Part shown: positions 715-40,823 of the stretch, one piece after another
How positions within the stretch are numbered: position 1 is the first letter of the stretch
How the letters are laid out: each line of letters starts with the position of its first letter
Source: Candidatus Uhrbacteria bacterium
Lineage (GTDB): Bacteria; Patescibacteriota; Patescibacteriia; UBA9934
Reading direction: 5' to 3'
Assembly: GCA_903848275.1 (NCBI GenBank)
Contig: CAINGB010000043.1
Span: forward strand, 1-41,298
DNA length: 41,298 nt
Notes under the pieces: model-generated
Database searches by the model: none
What the model saw: the letters and a program-made list of their open reading frames with translations, nothing else
What the model was told of the DNA's origin: nothing
Translations under genes and position numbers: made by a program

Positions 715-742
715 TGGTGTAGATAATTTTGTGTTTCATTTT

Positions 743-1813
743 ATGGCGAACATTGCCATCAACGGGTTTGGGAGAATCGGGCGGAATGTGCTAAAGGTTG
801 GTTGGGGAAAACCAGGCTTTAAAGTTGTGGCGATTAATGATTTGACTGATGCTGCGACGCTAGCTTATTTGTTGCGTCACGATACTAATTATGGAACGTG
901 GTCGGTGCCGGTAAGTGCCAAAGGCAAGGACTTGCTGATTGATGGGCGAGTGGTGCCGGTATATGCGGAGAAGGATCCGAGTGTTTTGCCGTGGAAGAAA
1001 TTGAAAGTAGACGTGGTGATTGAGTCAACTGGTTTTTTTGTGACAGAGGAGGGCTCCATGGCGCATATTAAGGCTGGGGCAAAGCGGGTAGTAATTTCGG
1101 CGCCAGCTAAAGGCGGCAATGTGCCAACTTACGTGCTTGGTGTTAATGATGGAAAATTGCAGATGGAAGTAGCGAAGGTTATTAATAATGCTTCTTGTAC
1201 CACGAATAGCGTAGCGCCAGTGACGGCTGTGATGGATGAAGAGTTTGGGATTGCTAAAGCAATGCTGACGACGGTGCATGGCATGACAGCCTCGCAATCA
1301 TTGGTCGACTCACCAAAACGAGATTTGCGCGAAGGTCGGGCAGCGAGTGAGAATATTATTCCGACGACGACTGGGGCGGCGATTGCGGTAACGCAGACCT
1401 TGCCGCAACTTAAAGGGAAGTTTGACGGCTTGAGTATTCGCGTGCCGGTACCGACGGTTTCCTTGTCTGACATGACGTTTGTACTGAAGAGAAAGGTCAC
1501 TAAGGAAGAGGTCAATGACGCTTTGATTAAGGCTGCCAGAAGCACGCGTTGGAAGGGCATTCTTGGTGTAACTAATGAATTGCTAGTGTCGAGCGACTTT
1601 GTAGGCGATCCGCATTCCGCGATTGTCGACTTGGCGTTGACGAACGTGGTCGACGGCGATTTGGTGAAGGTGGTTGCTTGGTACGATAATGAATGGGGCT
1701 ATGCTAATCGGCTGGCGGAGATTGCACTTGATTTAGCCCCGATAAAAGCTGCAGTGATTAAGAAGGCTAAGACTACAAAAGTAAAAACTTCTAAAACTAA
1801 GTCTAAGAAATAA
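743..1813 (+). CDS. gapA: Glyceraldehyde-3-phosphate dehydrogenase
   Basis: Type I GAPDH converts glyceraldehyde-3-phosphate, NAD+ and phosphate to 1,3-bisphosphoglycerate. The N-terminus holds the Rossmann motif INGFGRIGRN, and AINDLT (about 31-36) supplies the acidic residue that usually favours NAD+ over NADP+. Catalytic Cys152 sits in NNASCTTNSVAPV and the partner His179 in LTTVHGMT. SENIIPTTTGAA and WYDNEWGYANR are also present. Length is 356 residues including an unusual C-terminal tail of about 20 residues rich in Lys and Thr. The ATG at 743 was chosen because the Rossmann strand starts directly after it; an in-frame GTG at 731 would add four residues. It heads a run with doxX, ndh and pgk, separated by 1-3 bases. 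Confidence 0.97.
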   Translation: MANIAINGFGRIGRNVLKVGWGKPGFKVVAINDLTDAATLAYLLRHDTNYGTWSVPVSAKGKDLLIDGRVVPVYAEKDPSVLPWKKLKVDVVIESTGFFVTEEGSMAHIKAGAKRVVISAPAKGGNVPTYVLGVNDGKLQMEVAKVINNASCTTNSVAPVTAVMDEEFGIAKAMLTTVHGMTASQSLVDSPKRDLREGRAASENIIPTTTGAAIAVTQTLPQLKGKFDGLSIRVPVPTVSLSDMTFVLKRKVTKEEVNDALIKAARSTRWKGILGVTNELLVSSDFVGDPHSAIVDLALTNVVDGDLVKVVAWYDNEWGYANRLAEIALDLAPIKAAVIKKAKTTKVKTSKTKSKK

Positions 1814-1814
1814 T

Positions 1815-2309
1815 ATGCGCACAGAAGCTCTGACCGATCGTTTAATGAAAGTCACACATACGCCATTATTCAGTGTAGGCTTTGTAGCCCTAAGGTTAAC
1901 AATTGGTTTAGAATTCTTTTGGGCTGGCGTGACTAAGTTTGGTGGTTGGAGTGCGGCCGGATATTTGCAGTCAGCGGATGGCCCTTTGGCTGGTTGGTTT
2001 CATGCGTTAGCTGGTAGTGGGGTCATCGATGCCTTGAATATGTGGGGCTTGACCTTAATTGGTTTAGCTTTGATTTTAGGGTTATTAGTAAGGCCAGCTA
2101 GTATGTTTGGCATATTGCTAATGGTTCTGTATTACTTGGCGCATTTTGTTGGTAACACGGCAAATGGTTATATTGATACACATATTATTCAGATCGCTGC
2201 TTTATTGATGTTTAGCGCTGGAGGAGCTGGTCATGTTTTCGGCTTGAACGGTTTAGTAGCGAATATGATGCGTAAGCCTAACGTAGTTATGAAGTTCTTG
2301 CTTGGCTAA
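1815..2309 (+). CDS. DoxX family membrane protein
   Basis: This 164-residue hydrophobic protein has about four transmembrane segments and the layout of the DoxX/DoxD family. The N-terminal segment reads LRLTIGLEFFWAGVTKFGGW, with the family-typical F-x-x-x-G-x-x-K element; later segments include MWGLTLIGLALILGLLVRPA and a C-terminal ALLMFSAGGAGHVFGL. DoxX-like proteins include the small subunit of thiosulfate:quinone oxidoreductase and partners in membrane redox complexes, but many have no proven role. The gene starts one base after gapA and ends one base before the NADH dehydrogenase-like gene, so the three are almost certainly co-transcribed. That arrangement suggests a membrane partner for the flavoprotein. 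The exact reaction cannot be read from the sequence. Confidence 0.85.
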   Translation: MRTEALTDRLMKVTHTPLFSVGFVALRLTIGLEFFWAGVTKFGGWSAAGYLQSADGPLAGWFHALAGSGVIDALNMWGLTLIGLALILGLLVRPASMFGILLMVLYYLAHFVGNTANGYIDTHIIQIAALLMFSAGGAGHVFGLNGLVANMMRKPNVVMKFLLG

Positions 2310-2310
2310 T

Positions 2311-3564
2311 ATGATAGACCGGCAACGCATCGTCATTTTGGGGGGTGGCTTTGCCGGCGTCAACGTCGCGCAACATTTGGTTAAGTTAGCTAAGAATAAC
2401 GAGGAGATAATTCTGGTAGCAGCTGGCAAGACGCATACTTTTACGCCGTGGTTGTACGAGATTGCTACGGCTAAGGCTGATGAATGTAGCAAGAATGAAA
2501 AGAAGTGCATGAGTAAGACGGCGGACATTCCGCTGACATTTTTAGGCCCACAAGTGACGGTTAAACAGGCAGTAGTAACTGGACTTGATACTGCCCATAA
2601 CCATGTTTTGTTAGCCGGGGGACACACGCTACACTACGATTCTTTGGTTGTGGCATTGGGTAGCGAGATGGCTTACTTTGGTATTCCCGGCTTGCAGAAG
2701 TTGGCGTTGACTCTCAAAACAACGGCGGACGCTTTAGCTATTCGTCGACGAATCGGTGAACTCGTTACCTGTTTAAAACGTGGTGATTGCTCACAAATTA
2801 AAATAGTGATTGGTGGAGCTGGTCCTAACGGTGTTGAATTGGCAGCTGAGCTGGCGACGATGATGCTTGGTTTAGTGCGGCGGCGAGTTTTGGCTCGCGA
2901 TACGGTGCGTATTACCTTGGTTGATGGTGGTGAACGAGTGCTCGGCATGATGACGCCGAAGATTTCGCGGTTAGCAGGACATAGGCTACGTGTGTTGGGT
3001 GTGAAGGTGTTGCTTAATACTCGGATTAACGAGGTTAAGGTGGATGAGGTGATGGTCAAAAAGGGAGAGAAGTTATTGACATTGCCAAGTGATTGCACTA
3101 TTTGGACTGGTGGCGTGCAGCCAGCTGAGGTACTCAAGAATTTTGCTGTGCCGAAGGATCCACGCGGCAGAATTTTGGTCGAGCAGACGTTCGAAGTGCA
3201 AAAACAAGCGAATATCTTTGCGCTTGGCGATGCCGCTATGTTTGTCGATACGGCCAGTAAATTAACGTTGCCGCAAACGGCACAGGCGGCGGAGCAAGCG
3301 GCGCCAATGGTGGCTGCTAATGTGTTGCGAGCTTTGCGCAGAACCAAGCTGGTGACATACAAAGCACGGCAAAAATGGCCGTATTCAATTGCTATTGGCG
3401 GTAATTATGCATTGTTGGGTTACGGTAATTTAGTATTGAGCGGTTGGCTTGGTTATGTGGTGCGACGCTTGGTTGATTTGCGGTATTTCTGGAATATTTT
3501 GCCAGCCATGACTGCCATAAAATTTTGGTTAAAAGGAGTGCTTGAGTATAGAAAGAATGACTAA
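2311..3564 (+). CDS. ndh: NAD(P)/FAD-dependent oxidoreductase, type II NADH dehydrogenase-like
   Basis: The protein has the two-Rossmann fold of the pyridine nucleotide-disulfide oxidoreductase class. The FAD-binding motif VILGGGFAGVNVA lies at the N-terminus, the NAD(P)H-binding motif IVIGGAGPNGVELAAEL at about 165-181 and the second FAD motif IFALGDAAMF at about 302. There is no CxxxxC redox disulfide, which argues for an NDH-2-like enzyme passing electrons from NADH to a quinone or other membrane acceptor. The C-terminal 45 residues (GYGNLVLSGWLGYVVRRLVDL and an aromatic stretch) look like an amphipathic membrane anchor, as in NDH-2. The ATG at 2311 follows the doxX stop by one base; a TTG at 2302 would overlap doxX. 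Specific acceptor unknown. Confidence 0.85.
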   Translation: MIDRQRIVILGGGFAGVNVAQHLVKLAKNNEEIILVAAGKTHTFTPWLYEIATAKADECSKNEKKCMSKTADIPLTFLGPQVTVKQAVVTGLDTAHNHVLLAGGHTLHYDSLVVALGSEMAYFGIPGLQKLALTLKTTADALAIRRRIGELVTCLKRGDCSQIKIVIGGAGPNGVELAAELATMMLGLVRRRVLARDTVRITLVDGGERVLGMMTPKISRLAGHRLRVLGVKVLLNTRINEVKVDEVMVKKGEKLLTLPSDCTIWTGGVQPAEVLKNFAVPKDPRGRILVEQTFEVQKQANIFALGDAAMFVDTASKLTLPQTAQAAEQAAPMVAANVLRALRRTKLVTYKARQKWPYSIAIGGNYALLGYGNLVLSGWLGYVVRRLVDLRYFWNILPAMTAIKFWLKGVLEYRKND

Positions 3565-3567
3565 AAT

Positions 3568-4650
3568 ATGATTATTTTAAAAACTTGGAAGGCTGGTGAT
3601 ATTAAGCGTGGCACGAGGGTGCTATTGCGAATTGATGCCAACGTCGACCTAGTGCGTGGTCGAGCGGTAATCGGCAAACATGATAAGATTGCCAAGGCCT
3701 TGCCGGAGATTTTAAAGTTACAAGCGCGAGGTGCGGCGATTATTATCATGACGCATTTGGGACGACCGCGCGGGAAGCAGACGGAGTTTAGTGTAGCGCC
3801 GATTGCTAAGGCGATGGGGAAGGCGCTCGGGACGAAGATTGCGGTAGCAGAAGACGTGGTTGGGAAGGACGCTTTAAGATTAGCGTCGACGATTAAACCC
3901 GGGCAAATAATAATGCTGGAAAATTTACGATTTGATAAACGGGAAGAAGCTAATGATGAGACGTTGGCTGAGTTGCTGGCGAGTTTTGGTGATGTTTATG
4001 TGAATAATGCGTTTGGGGTTTGTCACCGGGCCCATGCCTCGGTGGCGGCAATAACTAAGTTTTTGCCGAGTTTTGCCGGCGGCTTGTTGGTAGAAGAAGT
4101 GAAGCAGTTGTCAGCACCAATGAAGAAGCCGTTTGTGTTGATAGTTGGTGGAAATAAGTTGGAGACTAAGGTGCCGTTGTTGTCGACGCTCGGCGTGAAA
4201 GCAGATTTGGTGATAGTTGGTAGTGGGCTGTTGCCAGCTTTTAAGAAGGGGCGCTTGTCGACGGAAGCAAAAACGGTGATTGATTTACTTGGCGATAGGT
4301 TGCGCTTGCCGCTTGATACGAGAGTCAATCAAAAAGGCAGTGTGATAGATCTTGGACGAGCAACGGAACAAATTTTGCCGACATGGTTGCGGGGGGCGAA
4401 GACGATAGTTTGGAATGGACCGGTCGGCTTGGTGGAGGAGCGAGCAGGTGCGGCGGGGACTAAGGCATTAATGAAGGCGATTGTTGGCGTGCATGGAGCG
4501 CGCAGCATTGTGGGCGGTGGATCCACCGTGGCGTTGGTGGAAAATAGTACTTTTGCTAGTAAATTTACTTTGCTCTCCACAGGCGGTGGGGCCATGTTGG
4601 AGTTTTTGAGCGGGGCGAAGATGCCGGGTTTAGAAGGACTGAGGGGTTGA
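3568..4650 (+). CDS. pgk: Phosphoglycerate kinase
   Basis: Pgk transfers the phosphate of 1,3-bisphosphoglycerate to ADP. Visible family motifs are VLLRIDANVDL near residue 20 (usual form RxDxNVP), THLGRPRG at about 62-69, MLENLRFDKREEAND, the substrate loop VNNAFGVCHRAHAS, GGNKLETKVPLL at about 194, WNGPVGLVE at about 282 and the glycine-rich nucleotide loop SIVGGGSTVALVE at about 313. At 360 residues it is shorter than the usual 390-400, with shortening spread over loops rather than loss of a domain. It is the last gene of the gapA operon. Its TGA stop at 4648-4650 lies inside the TTGACT element assigned to the next gene. Confidence 0.95.
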   Translation: MIILKTWKAGDIKRGTRVLLRIDANVDLVRGRAVIGKHDKIAKALPEILKLQARGAAIIIMTHLGRPRGKQTEFSVAPIAKAMGKALGTKIAVAEDVVGKDALRLASTIKPGQIIMLENLRFDKREEANDETLAELLASFGDVYVNNAFGVCHRAHASVAAITKFLPSFAGGLLVEEVKQLSAPMKKPFVLIVGGNKLETKVPLLSTLGVKADLVIVGSGLLPAFKKGRLSTEAKTVIDLLGDRLRLPLDTRVNQKGSVIDLGRATEQILPTWLRGAKTIVWNGPVGLVEERAGAAGTKALMKAIVGVHGARSIVGGGSTVALVENSTFASKFTLLSTGGGAMLEFLSGAKMPGLEGLRG

Positions 4651-35979: not shown

Positions 35980-36120
35980 ATGGCAGGTCTTAAATACGTT
36001 ATCTTTGGTTCTGGTCTAATGATTTCGGCTACTCAGATGGGTGGTGGAATCTTCTCGATCATCCTTTTTATTGTTGGTTTGGTGCTTTGTTTGGCTGGCT
36101 TGTCTAGTAAAGAAAAATAA
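35980..36120 (+). CDS. Small membrane protein (46 residues)
   Basis: MAGLKYVIFGSGLMISATQ, then a Gly-rich turn and a hydrophobic segment (IFSIILFIVGLVLCLAGL), ending SSKEK. Two short hydrophobic stretches could form a helical hairpin. Uniform hydrophobic coding, an ATG after an AT-rich stretch (TAAATAAAAT) and a TAA close to the next promoter argue that it is real. No family recognised. The gap from 35852 to 35979 holds only the repeat array. Confidence 0.6.
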   Translation: MAGLKYVIFGSGLMISATQMGGGIFSIILFIVGLVLCLAGLSSKEK

Positions 36121-36168: not shown

Positions 36169-36381
36169 ATGCATGAGTGTTCTGCCAGCGGAATGTGTAA
36201 GTGCCCACATCATAAGATGGTGCCATTGTGCATCACGTTGATCGGTTTGGCTTTCTTGTTGCATGCTCTTGGTGTGCTTGGTCAGCCATTTGTTGACGTG
36301 GCTTGGCCAGTCTTGCTGACCTTGATTGGTTTGCAAAAGTTGTCGAGCAGCATGTGTTCATGTTGCGGCGACAAGAAATAG
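36169..36381 (+). CDS. Small Cys/His-rich membrane protein (70 residues)
   Basis: The N-terminus holds MHECSASGMCKCPHHKM with three cysteines and three histidines. Two hydrophobic segments follow (about 19-37 and 43-56, PLCITLIGLAFLLHALGVLG and VDVAWPVLLTLIGL). The C-terminus is SSSMCSCCGDKK with three more cysteines. Both Cys clusters would lie on the same side if the two segments form a hairpin, which suggests metal or cluster binding; this is inference. It has its own promoter and a terminator follows. Confidence 0.7.
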   Translation: MHECSASGMCKCPHHKMVPLCITLIGLAFLLHALGVLGQPFVDVAWPVLLTLIGLQKLSSSMCSCCGDKK

Positions 36382-36491: not shown

Positions 36492-37085
36492 ATGGAAGAG
36501 TTAGAACCTGTAGTCGCTGTGAAAAAAGTAATTTCGCCAGCGATAATTTTGCCAATCATCGCTGTGATCATTGTAGCTGTTATTATTTTTGCTTCTCGAA
36601 AAGAGAGCGAAGTGCCAGCTGTGGCAGAAAAAGCAGCCACGACCACGGTGGCTGATAATGATACAAGTGCCAGTGGCCAGGCGGAAGCGGATAATGATGA
36701 AGATAATGCCGGTACGGTGCCAGCGCCTACGCCAACACCGGTAGTGAGTACGAAGACTACTCCTACTACCACAACGCAAACTAATACCACTTTTGCAAAC
36801 GGCACTTATTCGGCGGTTGGCAATTACTATTCACCCGAGGGATCCGAACAGATTAATGTTACCTTGACGCTTAAAGATGGTGTGGTTACGGCTAGCACGG
36901 TGACGGCGATGGCGACACAGCGCTATTCGTTAACTATGCAGAACGACTTTATTGCTAATTACAAGACGTTGGTGATTGGTAAGAAGATTACGGATATTAA
37001 GCTTGGTAAGGTTTCTGGTGCTTCGTTGACGCCGATTGGTTTTAATGACGCGGTGGCTAAGATTGAAGCCCAGGCAAAGGTTTAA
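36492..37085 (+). CDS. Membrane-anchored FMN-binding domain protein, predicted ApbE substrate
   Basis: The 197-residue protein has a short N-terminus, one membrane segment (about 16-34, PAIILPIIAVIIVAVIIFAS), and a long Ala/Thr/Pro/Asp-rich linker (about 38-100). A C-terminal FMN-binding domain follows (FANGTYSAVGNYYSPEGSEQINVTLTLKDGVV onward). Residues 175-180 read SGASLT, which fits the flavinylation motif (S/D)GA(S/T)x(S/T); Thr180 is the expected site of covalent FMN. The flavin transferase gene starts 5 bases downstream, which strongly supports this. The domain should face outward and carry electrons between membrane carriers and an external or envelope partner. Confidence 0.85.
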   Translation: MEELEPVVAVKKVISPAIILPIIAVIIVAVIIFASRKESEVPAVAEKAATTTVADNDTSASGQAEADNDEDNAGTVPAPTPTPVVSTKTTPTTTTQTNTTFANGTYSAVGNYYSPEGSEQINVTLTLKDGVVTASTVTAMATQRYSLTMQNDFIANYKTLVIGKKITDIKLGKVSGASLTPIGFNDAVAKIEAQAKV

Positions 37086-37089
37086 TTCT

Positions 37090-37968
37090 GTGTTTCGTCA
37101 GTTGGTGTTTGAGGCGATCGGCACTCATTGGATCGTAGACATTGTTGAAGATCTAGACGGCGGGTTGTTTGAGTCTCTTGAACGAGCTATTCACGAACGA
37201 ATCGAAGAGTTTGATAAGAATTATTCACGTTTCCGACATGATGGTTGGATTGAGAGATTAGCAACGCAGGCTGGCACTTATGAAGTGCCAGCTGATGCGG
37301 GGCCGCTTTTGGCTTTGTATGAGAAGGTTTATCGAGTTACTGAAGGAGCAGTGACGCCGTTGATTGGTCAGGTGCTAGTGGACGCTGGTTATGACGCTGA
37401 GTATTCGTTACAGTCGAAGAATGAGCTGATGAGACCGCCGAGATGGGATGAAGTTATAGAGTATAAGTATCCGCTGTTAACGATGAAGAAGCCGGCGGTG
37501 TTGGATTTCGGCGCAGCAGGGAAGGGGTATTTGGTCGATTTGATAGCTGAGCTCATTAGTTCTTTTGGCGTAGCTTCGTTTACGGTTGATGCGGGCGGCG
37601 ACATGCGTCACCAGAGTTCAATCAACGAAGTGCTGAAAGTTGGCTTGGAGCATCCAGAAGATACATCATTGGCGATTGGTGTAGCTGGGTTAGGCAACCG
37701 AAGTTTATGTGGTTCGGCTGGGAGTCGGCGAAAGTGGGGAGAGTATCATCACATTATTGATCCGCGAACGCTCACTTCGCCACGTAATATCCTGGCGGTG
37801 TGGGTAATGGCGGAGAGTACCATGTTGGCTGACGCTATGACGACCTGCTTATTTTTTATGGAGCCGGAGAAGGTTAGATCAGAGTTTGTTTTTGATTATT
37901 TGATTATGTATGCCGATTATTCGGTGAGTAAGTCGGCAGGTTTTTCAGCGGAGTTATTCACTGCTTGA
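37090..37968 (+). CDS. apbE: FAD:protein FMN transferase (ApbE)
   Basis: ApbE attaches FMN covalently to a Thr or Ser of target proteins outside the cytoplasm, using FAD. The 292-residue product shows the family motifs DKNYSRFRHDGWIERLA (usual FSxYxxxSE), PAVLDFGAAGKGYLVDLI near 137-150 (LDxGGxxKGxxxD), SFTVDAGGDMR, LCGSAGSRRKWGEYHHIIDPRT and the metal-binding MLADAMTTCLFFM. I see no signal peptide or lipobox, which is unusual for an enzyme acting outside. GTG at 37090 was chosen because it lies 4 bases after the upstream stop. A frame from 37036 would overlap the substrate gene. Confidence 0.92.
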   Translation: MFRQLVFEAIGTHWIVDIVEDLDGGLFESLERAIHERIEEFDKNYSRFRHDGWIERLATQAGTYEVPADAGPLLALYEKVYRVTEGAVTPLIGQVLVDAGYDAEYSLQSKNELMRPPRWDEVIEYKYPLLTMKKPAVLDFGAAGKGYLVDLIAELISSFGVASFTVDAGGDMRHQSSINEVLKVGLEHPEDTSLAIGVAGLGNRSLCGSAGSRRKWGEYHHIIDPRTLTSPRNILAVWVMAESTMLADAMTTCLFFMEPEKVRSEFVFDYLIMYADYSVSKSAGFSAELFTA

Positions 37969-38042: not shown

Positions 38043-40823
38043 ATGATAACTAATCATAAGGGTCGCCGTTTTACGAGCGGAGTCTTCCTGTTCTCGGCAT
38101 TGATGGTTTTTACTACGTTCGCCGCCGTGGTCATCATGAGTTCGTCACCATTGCGGAGTTGGATTACGCAGGTGTCATTGCATACGGCGGGTATTAGTGA
38201 CGTCGCGGCTGACGCCCCGGTAACCGCGGTGAGTTTGGGGTCGGCAAATATTATTGAGTTGATGGGCGAGGTGACGCTTGATGCGACCGGTATTAAGGTG
38301 ATTACTGCAGGAGATGTTAACAATGATGGTTATGATGATTTCTTGATAGGCTCGAAGACTAATGATGATACTGGCGTGAATGCTGGAGCGGCTTATTTGG
38401 TATATGGTCGGGCAGCAGCGTTAACAGCGGGTAGTTTGGGTGGTGGGGCGAATACGGTAGTTGAGTTTACGGGTGAGGCGGCTAATGATTATGCCGGAAC
38501 AATCGTCGGTCCAGCGGGTGATGTCAATAACGATGGTTATGATGATTTTCTCATTACATCCTATCAGCCAGGACCAGGGGTGGGAAACGGTCAGACTTAT
38601 TTAATTTACGGTCAGGCGGCTGCTTTTGCCTCTAACGTGAGTTTGGGTGCAGTTGGTATAGTGAAGTTTACTGGCGAGGCATTGAATGATTTTGCGGGGG
38701 CGATGGCTAATGCGGTGGGGGACGTGAATAAAGATGGCTACGACGATTTTATGATCGGGGCGACTGGAAATGATGATGTAGCACTGAATGCTGGGGCAGC
38801 TTATCTGATTTACGGACAAGCGGCGCCCTTGGTTTCTGCTAGTCTCAGTACAGCGATTGAGTTTGCTGGGGAAGCCGCAGCTGATGCAGCTGGTACGAGC
38901 ATAGCCGCTGGAGACTTCAATAATGATGGGTATAGCGACATGCTTATTTCCGCGCCTACGTATGCGGCTAATAATTTGGGCCGAACGTATTTATTTTACG
39001 GAAAGGCGGCCGCCTTTACTTCGGTTAATTTGAGTACAGCGGATGCGACTTTTACGGGCGAGGTAGCGGAAGATGCGACTGGAGTCAATATTGGATTAGC
39101 AGGTGACGTGAATAATGATACCTACCAAGATATCTTGATTGGTTCGACTGGGAATGATGATGCTGGTGCTGGTGCTGGTGCGGTTTATCTTATTTACGGT
39201 CAAGCTTCGGCGCTGGCCTCGGCGAGTTTGAGTACAGCTATCGAATTTACAGGAGAGGCGGCCGGCGACGCAGCTGGTAATTCGGTCAGTGGAGCAGGAG
39301 ACATTAACGGTGATGGTTATAGTGACTTCCTGATAGGTGCGCCACTGAATGATGAAGCTGGGGCGGATGCTGGAGCTGCGTATTTGGTTTACGGTAAGGC
39401 AACGACCTTCGTCTCGGCCAGTTTGAACACCTTTGTGGAGTATTCCGGTGAGGCGGCTGGGGATAGGGCTGGTAATAGCGTTAGTAATGGTGGGGATATT
39501 AATAATGACGGCTATAATGATGTTTTGATCAGTAGTCGCTTTAACGACGATAACGCGGTGGATGCTGGAGCGACCTATGTAATTTATTATCAGCCGCCAT
39601 ACGTATCCTTGTCGGCTGCGACACAAACATTAGATGAAAGTGCGGCTTCGGGGACGATAACCGCGCAGATCACCAATACTTTCCCGTATACTGTAGCTAT
39701 TCCGTATACAGTAGCTGGAACCGCGACTGGTGGGGGGACGGACTATACGTTGGGGGCTGGTAGTTTGTCGATTGCGGCTGGAGCTCTTAGTGGAGATATT
39801 TCATTTACTATTTTCGATGATCATATTCATGAACTGGATGAGACCATGATAGTGACTTTGGGCCGTCCAAGCTATGGAACGTTGTCCGGGACAACTCTGC
39901 AAACTATTACCATTACGGATAATGATAATCCATCGAAAGTAATTAGTAATCCAGCTACCACCACCGCGAAGACGCTAACTGTTTTGACGCCGACGATAGC
40001 CACGGAGATTATTGAAGGCGCGACAATGAGAGTGACTTGGAACTATACAGGCGTGATTCCGGCAGTATCGGTGTACATGTCGACGAACGGGGGGACGAGT
40101 TGGACAGCGATGCGGACTAATATTGCTAATGAAGGGTCGACGACGTTTGCGGCACCTTTTGTGACGACGAGTCAAGCTTTGGTGAAAGTTGAAGGAACTG
40201 ATTTGGCAACAGTGTTAGCAACCGGGATCAGCGATCCATTTTATTTGCTGAAGGCGGCCGGTGACGTACCCGTTGAGACAATTGTCATACCGGAGGCTCC
40301 GTCTACCTCGGTAAGTGGTGTGACGGAGGCAGAGGCAAGAGTTGCGACTTGGCCAGTAGCCGTGAAAGCAGACACGCTTATTAAGATGCGCGGTGATGGA
40401 GATGCAGCAACTACGGCCGATGCGGTAGTCTACTTCCTAGCGGCTGACGGCTATCGTCATGCTTTCCCAAATGAGCGCGTTTACTTCACCTGGTATAGGA
40501 ATTTTGACAATATTGTTAAGATTTCGGCAGCTGATATGGCTAAAATTGCCTTGGGTAGTAATGTGACGTATAGACCAGGGACTAGGATGGTGAAGTTTAC
40601 TTCGGGAAATAAGGTTTACGCTGTGGACCGGGGCGGGGTGCTCCGTTGGGTGACGACTGAAGCGGCAGCGCGAGTATTGTATGGTAACGATTGGAATACT
40701 AGGATTGATGATATTTCTGATGCCTTGTTCGGTAGTTACAGTTTTGGCCCGATTATCAATGCACAAGTTGACTATAATCCCAATGGATTCACTGACGTGA
40801 TTAATCCTGGAGATTCGCTGTAA
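38043..40823 (+). CDS. Secreted FG-GAP beta-propeller / Calx-beta surface protein
   Basis: The 926-residue protein has an N-terminal signal or anchor (about 15-32, FLFSALMVFTTFAAVVIM). Seven FG-GAP repeats of about 65 residues follow, each with a calcium loop such as DVNNDGYDDFLIG (near residues 90, 159, 226, 290, 354, 419 and 484), so a seven-bladed integrin-like propeller. A Calx-beta domain comes next (about 522-630, SAATQTLDESAASGTI to TITITDNDNP). A beta-sandwich (about 643-735, TPTIATEIIEGATMRVTWNYTG) follows. The C-terminal 150 residues (AVVYFLAADGYRHAFPNERVYF, VTYRPGTRMVKF, KVYAVDRGGVLRWV, LYGNDWN) form a domain I associate with secreted CPR proteins. Probable role in adhesion or cell-surface architecture. 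Confidence 0.93.
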   Translation: MITNHKGRRFTSGVFLFSALMVFTTFAAVVIMSSSPLRSWITQVSLHTAGISDVAADAPVTAVSLGSANIIELMGEVTLDATGIKVITAGDVNNDGYDDFLIGSKTNDDTGVNAGAAYLVYGRAAALTAGSLGGGANTVVEFTGEAANDYAGTIVGPAGDVNNDGYDDFLITSYQPGPGVGNGQTYLIYGQAAAFASNVSLGAVGIVKFTGEALNDFAGAMANAVGDVNKDGYDDFMIGATGNDDVALNAGAAYLIYGQAAPLVSASLSTAIEFAGEAAADAAGTSIAAGDFNNDGYSDMLISAPTYAANNLGRTYLFYGKAAAFTSVNLSTADATFTGEVAEDATGVNIGLAGDVNNDTYQDILIGSTGNDDAGAGAGAVYLIYGQASALASASLSTAIEFTGEAAGDAAGNSVSGAGDINGDGYSDFLIGAPLNDEAGADAGAAYLVYGKATTFVSASLNTFVEYSGEAAGDRAGNSVSNGGDINNDGYNDVLISSRFNDDNAVDAGATYVIYYQPPYVSLSAATQTLDESAASGTITAQITNTFPYTVAIPYTVAGTATGGGTDYTLGAGSLSIAAGALSGDISFTIFDDHIHELDETMIVTLGRPSYGTLSGTTLQTITITDNDNPSKVISNPATTTAKTLTVLTPTIATEIIEGATMRVTWNYTGVIPAVSVYMSTNGGTSWTAMRTNIANEGSTTFAAPFVTTSQALVKVEGTDLATVLATGISDPFYLLKAAGDVPVETIVIPEAPSTSVSGVTEAEARVATWPVAVKADTLIKMRGDGDAATTADAVVYFLAADGYRHAFPNERVYFTWYRNFDNIVKISAADMAKIALGSNVTYRPGTRMVKFTSGNKVYAVDRGGVLRWVTTEAAARVLYGNDWNTRIDDISDALFGSYSFGPIINAQVDYNPNGFTDVINPGDSL

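Follow-up and report, generated by a model that had tools for sequence, protein, structure and literature searches.

The window analysed here, a stretch of 41,298 nucleotides, is contig C43 of a 985-kb genome (G000) that is assembled in 48 contigs and estimated to be about 99.3% complete. Among named relatives, the closest one found (L058) is a Candidatus Uhrbacteria MAG, which makes an uhrbacterial source probable. Two of its genes, one directly after the other on the forward strand, encode a predicted membrane-anchored FMN carrier and an ApbE flavin transferase. They are listed below with their main features, together with a distant gene that had been suggested as their electron source.

36492..37085, forward strand: predicted FMN-carrier protein, 197 aa, with an N-terminal transmembrane (TM) helix, a stalk rich in T, S, A and P, and a C-terminal FMN_bind-type domain (open reading frame, conservation, fold)
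36537..36605, forward strand: predicted transmembrane helix serving as membrane anchor, residues 16-38 (helix in the model; 75 of 75 relatives likewise hydrophobic ahead of the domain)
36795..37082, forward strand: predicted FMN_bind-type domain, residues 102-197 (pLDDT block means 95-98; VIA-align Z)
37023..37025, forward strand: Ser178, last residue of SGAS, predicted FMN acceptor (Ser in 75 of 75; aligns with Thr72 of 8p2a)
37029..37031, forward strand: Thr180, predicted to hydrogen-bond flavin N3, not the acceptor (Thr in 72 of 75; aligns with Thr74 of 8p2a)
37090..37968, forward strand: ApbE flavin transferase, 292 aa, without export signal (PF02424 E 1.2e-39; N-terminus)
2302..3564, forward strand: NDH-2-like oxidoreductase (the "2311 gene"), judged housekeeping and not a dedicated partner

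A sequence-only reading of this DNA had described an anchored protein followed by its ApbE transferase, and this arrangement stands, with both open reading frames in place and the pair recurring among relatives. The carrier begins with a short and charged N-terminus, before helix 16-38 and the stalk. The likely start of ApbE is a GTG at 37090, 4 nt past the stop of the FMN gene. Its product matches PF02424 with 136.9 bits against a cut-off of 25.6 (E 1.2e-39; profile positions 2-252 of 266), and the ApbE family profile aligned to solved FMN transferases. It is 77% identical to the ApbE of a congener (L003) and retains every column found to be invariant across 8 relatives. On sequence grounds we assign it to the FAD:protein FMN transferase family, with transfer of FMN to its partner as the predicted activity.

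ApbE is present in nine of 23 family genomes, all nine of which also have the carrier, and V-S-G-[SA]-S-L-T is kept in every one of these carriers. A wider scan gave 246 relatives, of which the best 80, loci from named records, were analysed; this set overlaps with the family genomes (L058 and G015, or L062 and G001, for example, look identical). By their tree labels the 80 loci are mostly Patescibacteria (Uhr-, Magasanik- and Saccharibacteria, WWE3, Gracilibacteria and others), with 20 Actinomycetota and one Bacillota among them. A carrier adjoins ApbE in 75 of these best 80 of 246; one of the five loci without an adjacent carrier, L095, begins at the ApbE gene. A pairing that recurs to this extent is more than chance.

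Other genes lie close by. Directly 3' of apbE, a 926-aa FG-GAP/Calx-beta protein is encoded at 38043-40823, and a protein that looks similar by eye also follows the FMN/ApbE pair in G015 (L026:5379-8231). Two short membrane-protein-like open reading frames precede the pair, at 35980-36120 and about 36170-36380, the first having a sub-threshold match to DUF3185.

Predicted fold and acceptor residue of the carrier

The carrier scores 15.3 bits against PF04205, below the cut-off of 22 (E 0.032), and a PF04205 search of the whole genome listed no match. About 4 of 60 family carriers pass the cut-off, in a count run at an E-value estimated to equal the gathering threshold. In the AlphaFold prediction, however, residues 102-197 form a domain with block mean pLDDT values of 95-98, and its best match by VIA-align is 8p2a, an FMN-bearing domain that stands clear of all others (Z 10.4, rmsd 2.2, 88 aligned). 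The Z values for NqrC (4xhf, 8.3), 8p2b (8.3) and RnfG (7zc6, 8.0) are lower, and all three are level with a lipoylation-system chain (3r07, 8.4) and IscU (8.2). Foldseek alone gave nothing under E 0.001, with 8p2a first at 0.021. When a profile of 60 carriers was compared with PDB sequences, 8p2a was the sole match at E <=0.1 (E 0.0067). Our carrier alignment (A3) holds the window carrier and 59 of the 75 relatives' carriers, leaving out 11 with open reading frames >215 aa and five more. Predicted fold and conservation support an FMN_bind-type assignment despite the sub-threshold Pfam score.

SGASLT occupies carrier residues 175-180, of which SGAS (175-178) fits the [S/T]-G-A-[S/T] motif. The earlier proposal of a flavinylation motif in the anchored protein is thus upheld, but its choice of Thr180 as acceptor is not. 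In 8p2a, FMN is described as carried on Thr72, with Thr74 hydrogen-bonding flavin N3 (PMC10339131). Profile alignment places the carriers' SGSSLT on SGATYT of 8p2a, so that Thr180 matches Thr74 and is rejected as acceptor. By homology to Thr72, Ser178 is most likely the acceptor, and Thr180 would take a flavin-binding role. Among the carriers from the best 80 of 246 loci, the acceptor position is Ser in 75 of 75. The threonine of SGASLT, whose loss in orthologues had been named as the finding that would speak against a flavin carrier, is retained in 72 of the same 75.

A serine acceptor departs from what is described for other ApbE substrates, where Thr is favoured, Ser is poorer, and the motif is defined with a strictly conserved Asp at its beginning (PMC12052999). 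Three residues ahead of the first Ser/Thr of the motif, the window carrier has Gly172; Asp stands there in 25 of 75 relatives (from the best 80 of 246). The Ser type appears tied to the ApbE clade seen here (98 support in a quickly built tree), since ApbEs of the class that lie farther off have SGAT carriers (L149, L156, L158-L161 and L163); L151, just outside the clade, also reads Ser.

Candidate entry points for NADH electrons

A fusion of NqrB/RnfD and NqrF (NqrB-F) adjoins the pair in 55 of the best 80 of 246 loci, the L087 copy being cut off. In the genomes of the other 25, a full-length NqrB-F lies elsewhere in six and a full ferric-reductase-like (FRE-like) protein is found in eight others; two have partial NqrB-type matches, and nine have neither, although in two of the nine a reductase domain alone was matched. 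Among family genomes, G007 and G008 have NqrB-F next to the pair, and G001-G004 have FRE-like proteins. The window genome, about 99.3% complete in 48 contigs, gave no match to NqrB-F by sequence or profile, and none to the FRE-like protein or its profile (a PF01794-type transmembrane protein). Neither was found in the ApbE-bearing congeners G015 (85% complete) and G017 (66%), nor in profile searches of the genome of L058, probably the same MAG as G015.

G000, G015 and G017, alone among the 23 family genomes, gave a second match to the 2311 NDH-2-like gene. These second NDH-2 genes form their own clade with support of 100 and score over the NDH2_C cut-off. The window genome's copy (L192:6511-7761) reaches 33.7 bits against 27.7, and its best solved relatives are NDH-2s. 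The ApbE-less congeners G016 (92% complete) and G018 (94%) gave no second match, and the other family genomes were searched with the 2311 gene only, which detects both NDH-2 types. Within the genus, the NDH2_C-type NDH-2 is found in 3/3 genomes with ApbE versus 0/2 without (Fisher 0.1, kinship ignored), and it is the best candidate for the NADH entry there. Across the family, a candidate entry of any of the three kinds (NqrB-F, FRE-like or NDH2_C-type NDH-2) occurs in 9/9 genomes with ApbE versus 3/14 without (Fisher 3.4e-4, kinship ignored). Cytochrome bd and heme-copper oxidases were found in 0/23 family genomes, and in cells of this kind a carrier with its ApbE would be a plausible outlet for NADH electrons.

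In the three ApbE-less genomes with a candidate NADH entry, that entry is a FRE-like NAD(P)H protein encoded beside a TM-anchored cytochrome b5 domain protein (L031:4171-5868, L032:6604-8365 and L033:92-1947). The cytochrome may be seen as a heme counterpart of the flavin carrier.

The 2311 gene itself, which the sequence-only reading offered as electron source, makes a poor candidate. It occurs in 19 of 23 family genomes irrespective of ApbE (9/9 with ApbE, 10/14 without; p 0.13), stands in a gap-doxX-ndh-pgk order in all eight family loci read and has no NDH2_C match at E 1. We therefore reject it as a dedicated donor; it looks like a housekeeping gene. The two NDH-2-like genes are separated by NDH2_C and distribution, since the nearest solved structures of the 2311 product are also NDH-2-type and both genes fall below the NCBIfam cut-off of TIGR03169. 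Around it, at 731-4650, a DoxX and NADH-oxidase-like pair sits amid glycolytic genes, in genomes without a detected terminal oxidase.

Electrons might still arrive by another entry, either the DoxX/NDH-2-like pair at 1815-3564 or an HMA-DsbD protein, which we regard as unlikely. The window genome does have two DoxX matches and an HMA-DsbD protein, and DoxX adjoins the pair in 6/8 loci without NqrB-F or FRE-like (Aeribacillus uncounted) versus 1/72 others among the best 80 of 246, a naive Fisher value of 6.4e-7. In a quickly built tree, where many branches are weak, the association shrinks, however, to three DoxX changes, beside four of the "neither" state, with one independent pair on starred branches (L122 left out of the tree-pair test), and two of the DoxX-locus genomes measure just 500-600 kb. 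We accordingly set DoxX aside as a replacement partner. DsbD_2, like the 2311 gene, occurs irrespective of ApbE (20/23 genomes; 8/9 with ApbE, 12/14 without; p 1), and it too was rejected as donor.

The loci with DoxX next to the FMN/ApbE pair are L071, L083, L088, L091, L103 and L107; this may possibly be another partner type. Elsewhere in the window genome (L195:3024-5772, contig C18), and in G015 (L026:1-1924), a metal-ATPase-like gene (by eye), an HMA-DsbD_2 gene and a gene for a small exported-looking protein lie in a row.

It is rather improbable that the pair is a relic, nearly functionless in the window genus after the loss of its NqrB-F partner. The failure to find NqrB-F or FRE-like proteins in G000, G015 and G017, and ApbE in two of five genus members, would fit such a loss. 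Both open reading frames are intact, however, the pair is retained in three genus members, and the degree of conservation of ApbE (77% identity to the L003 congener, columns invariant in 8 relatives kept) speaks for continued use.

Export signals and the site of flavin transfer

The window ApbE looks cytosolic from its amino acid sequence. Its open frame runs just 20 codons upstream of GTG 37090, and the top 15-residue hydropathy mean across this extension and the first 30 residues is 1.49, versus 1.99 for E. coli ApbE, which served as sole positive control for our self-chosen cut-off of KD 1.6. Among 78 scorable relatives from the best 80 of 246 (L109 and L118 left out; up to 60 residues preceding the domain covered), one, L130, reaches KD 1.6 upstream of the domain, the next value being 1.46. 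The L130 stretch lies in an extension overlapping the FMN gene, and its ApbE domain starts 7 nt after the FMN stop. The domain begins <=60 nt after that stop in 68 of 73 pairs from the same best 80 of 246. None of 26 ApbE loci of the class reaches KD 1.6 (highest 1.57); of these L148 is a fragment, and the ApbEs of L152 and L157 are identical to those of L067 and L075 in the 80-locus set. A hidden export signal, for which a comparison with relatives had been advised, is therefore not credible in the window ApbE, the 78 relatives or the 26 class loci. The earlier observation that ApbE has no visible signal holds, but it is not odd: the relatives examined, among them Actinobacteria, lack one as a rule.

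The carrier, judging from N-termini across the family, is probably exported. A hydrophobic stretch precedes the domain in 75 of 75 carriers from the best 80 of 246 loci (lowest KD mean 1.61), in keeping with the initial description of an extracytoplasmic module in which an anchored flavin protein is followed by its ApbE. Among the same 75, our own lipobox pattern is found in 26, of which 20 are actinobacterial and six come from outside Actinomycetota. In the remaining 49, the flank N-terminal to the helix is the more positive one in 27 (N-in/C-out), less positive in 8 and tied in 14. The flanks of the window carrier are ambiguous by eye, with KK before and RK after, and we infer the topology of this copy from its relatives. 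Tat export of the window carrier was rejected, there being no RR in its N-terminus; a loose Tat pattern occurs in 10 of the 75 relatives (from the best 80 of 246), nine actinobacterial and one Aeribacillus.

Two routes to an exported flavoprotein are described in PMC9973259: proteins that receive their cofactor inside the cell travel by Tat, and those that use Sec are given it outside. The same source describes Listeria as exporting FAD for its outer ApbE and the well-studied ApbEs as extracytosolic. The present pairs match neither route easily, and cytosolic flavinylation is the simplest reading. We propose a model where the product of 36492-37085 is anchored in the membrane with its C-terminal FMN_bind-type domain outside the cell. 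The dedicated ApbE would split cytosolic FAD and put FMN covalently on Ser178; because ApbE has no export signal, transfer would most likely take place in the cytosol, either ahead of the carrier's passage through Sec or in the course of it, sparing the cell an FAD exporter. Once outside, the bound flavin would receive NADH-derived electrons and pass them on, for instance to oxygen or ferric iron. NADH would enter through the NqrB-NqrF fusion or the ferric-reductase-like protein in related genomes, and in the window genus through NDH-2, via quinone or an unknown membrane step. The gene pair, the predicted fold, the conserved Ser, the lack of a recognisable ApbE signal, the export-type carrier N-termini and the partner distribution are computed results, and we put the probability of the whole explanation at about one half.

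A broader form of this model is possible, if on balance doubtful. A cytosolic ApbE clade, Patescibacteria-wide and shared with Actinobacteria, may flavinylate a Ser of a Sec-type TM or lipoprotein carrier ahead of the carrier's passage across the membrane, needing neither an FAD exporter nor Tat, with NqrB-F swapped for a stand-alone NDH-2 in the window genus. Side chains of the size of FMN can get through SecY. Flavinylation in the cytosol before Sec export, if true, would be a third way to supply the cofactor of an exported protein.

One feature counts against cytosolic loading. About 19 residues separate the acceptor from the carrier C-terminus (median 19, range 18-26; 75 carriers from the best 80 of 246 loci), and the acceptor would therefore hardly be exposed in the cytosol under co-translational insertion. 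Such a position suits late modification, as in the conventional order, where export of the carrier comes first, ApbE, lacking a recognisable signal, leaves the cell by some other path, and FAD is exported or scavenged. The well-studied ApbEs, extracytosolic and requiring outside FAD as described in PMC9973259, offer a precedent. We nevertheless give this order only a slim chance, as there is no credible hydrophobic ApbE N-terminus among the 78 scorable relatives (from the best 80 of 246), little room for one in the 68 of 73 pairs (same best 80 of 246) with the domain <=60 nt past the FMN stop, and no class locus of the 26 that reaches KD 1.6.

That both partners remain inside, with a cytosolic FMN domain on an N-out/C-in carrier, is highly improbable: the signal-less ApbE, the cytosolic ApbE and target described for Klebsiella (PMC12052999) and the ambiguous TM flanks of the window carrier would allow it, but the lipobox of our own pattern in 26 of 75 carriers would place the domain outside, the N-flank is more positive in 27 versus 8 of the non-lipobox carriers (all from the best 80 of 246 loci), and the stalks are rich in T, S, A and P. 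A cytoplasmic ApbE with a cytoplasmic target had also been named at the outset as an outcome that would count against an extracytoplasmic module; the first half appears to be true, but the carriers are of export type in 75 of 75, 26 with a lipobox (best 80 of 246).

In the cytosolic-loading model the parts are of known kinds, and it is the signal-less ApbE with an outer target that is unlike the well-studied cases. Nqr/Rnf-like two-subunit flavinylated systems have been described (PMC8238504, Meheust et al. 2021; PMC11334425, mSystems 2024), chiefly from Actinobacteria and the candidate phyla radiation according to PMC8238504. They share with our loci an extracytosolic NqrC/RnfG-like FMN subunit and the adjacent NqrB-NqrF (55 of the best 80 of 246), whereas the window genome has no detected NqrB-F, a predicted Ser acceptor, a signal-less ApbE and an FMN domain of a family mostly under the Pfam cut-off. 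Compared with NqrC and RnfG themselves, the carrier has a like domain fold (Z 8.3 and 8.0) and an S-G-[AS]-[ST] motif, but it belongs to a two-gene unit with a Ser acceptor and no NqrB-F-type partner found in its genome. The FRE-like NAD(P)H protein and FMN/ApbE pair of G001-G004 resemble the MsrQ-like (ferric-reductase-like) systems described in PMC8238504. Unlike in those systems, the FRE-like gene lies away from the pair in G001-G004, and it was not found in G000.

In the flavin-based extracellular electron transfer (EET) of Listeria, Ndh2 is the NADH entry. The window genome likewise has a type II NADH dehydrogenase (L192:6511-7761) as a possible entry, unclustered with the FMN/ApbE pair, unlike in Listeria. 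A surface FMN carrier with an ApbE also recalls the PplA/FmnB pair as described in PMC9973259, but the window carrier has a single FMN domain and a TM anchor, and its ApbE carries no signal, in contrast to the extracytosolic FmnB.

ApbEs without a signal have precedents, such as the Klebsiella enzyme with its cytosolic target described in PMC12052999. In the passages that our literature search returned, none was systematically paired with exported carriers. The search gave no report linking DoxX with flavinylation and none joining ApbE, flavinylation and Patescibacteria; for ApbE or FMN transferase together with the candidate phyla radiation it found only PMC8238504 and a single-cell genomics paper. 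The survey in PMC8238504 describes extracytosolic flavinylation as strikingly underrepresented in that radiation. This gap may be partly technical, since only about 4 of 60 carriers pass the Pfam cut-off and their ApbEs are signal-less.
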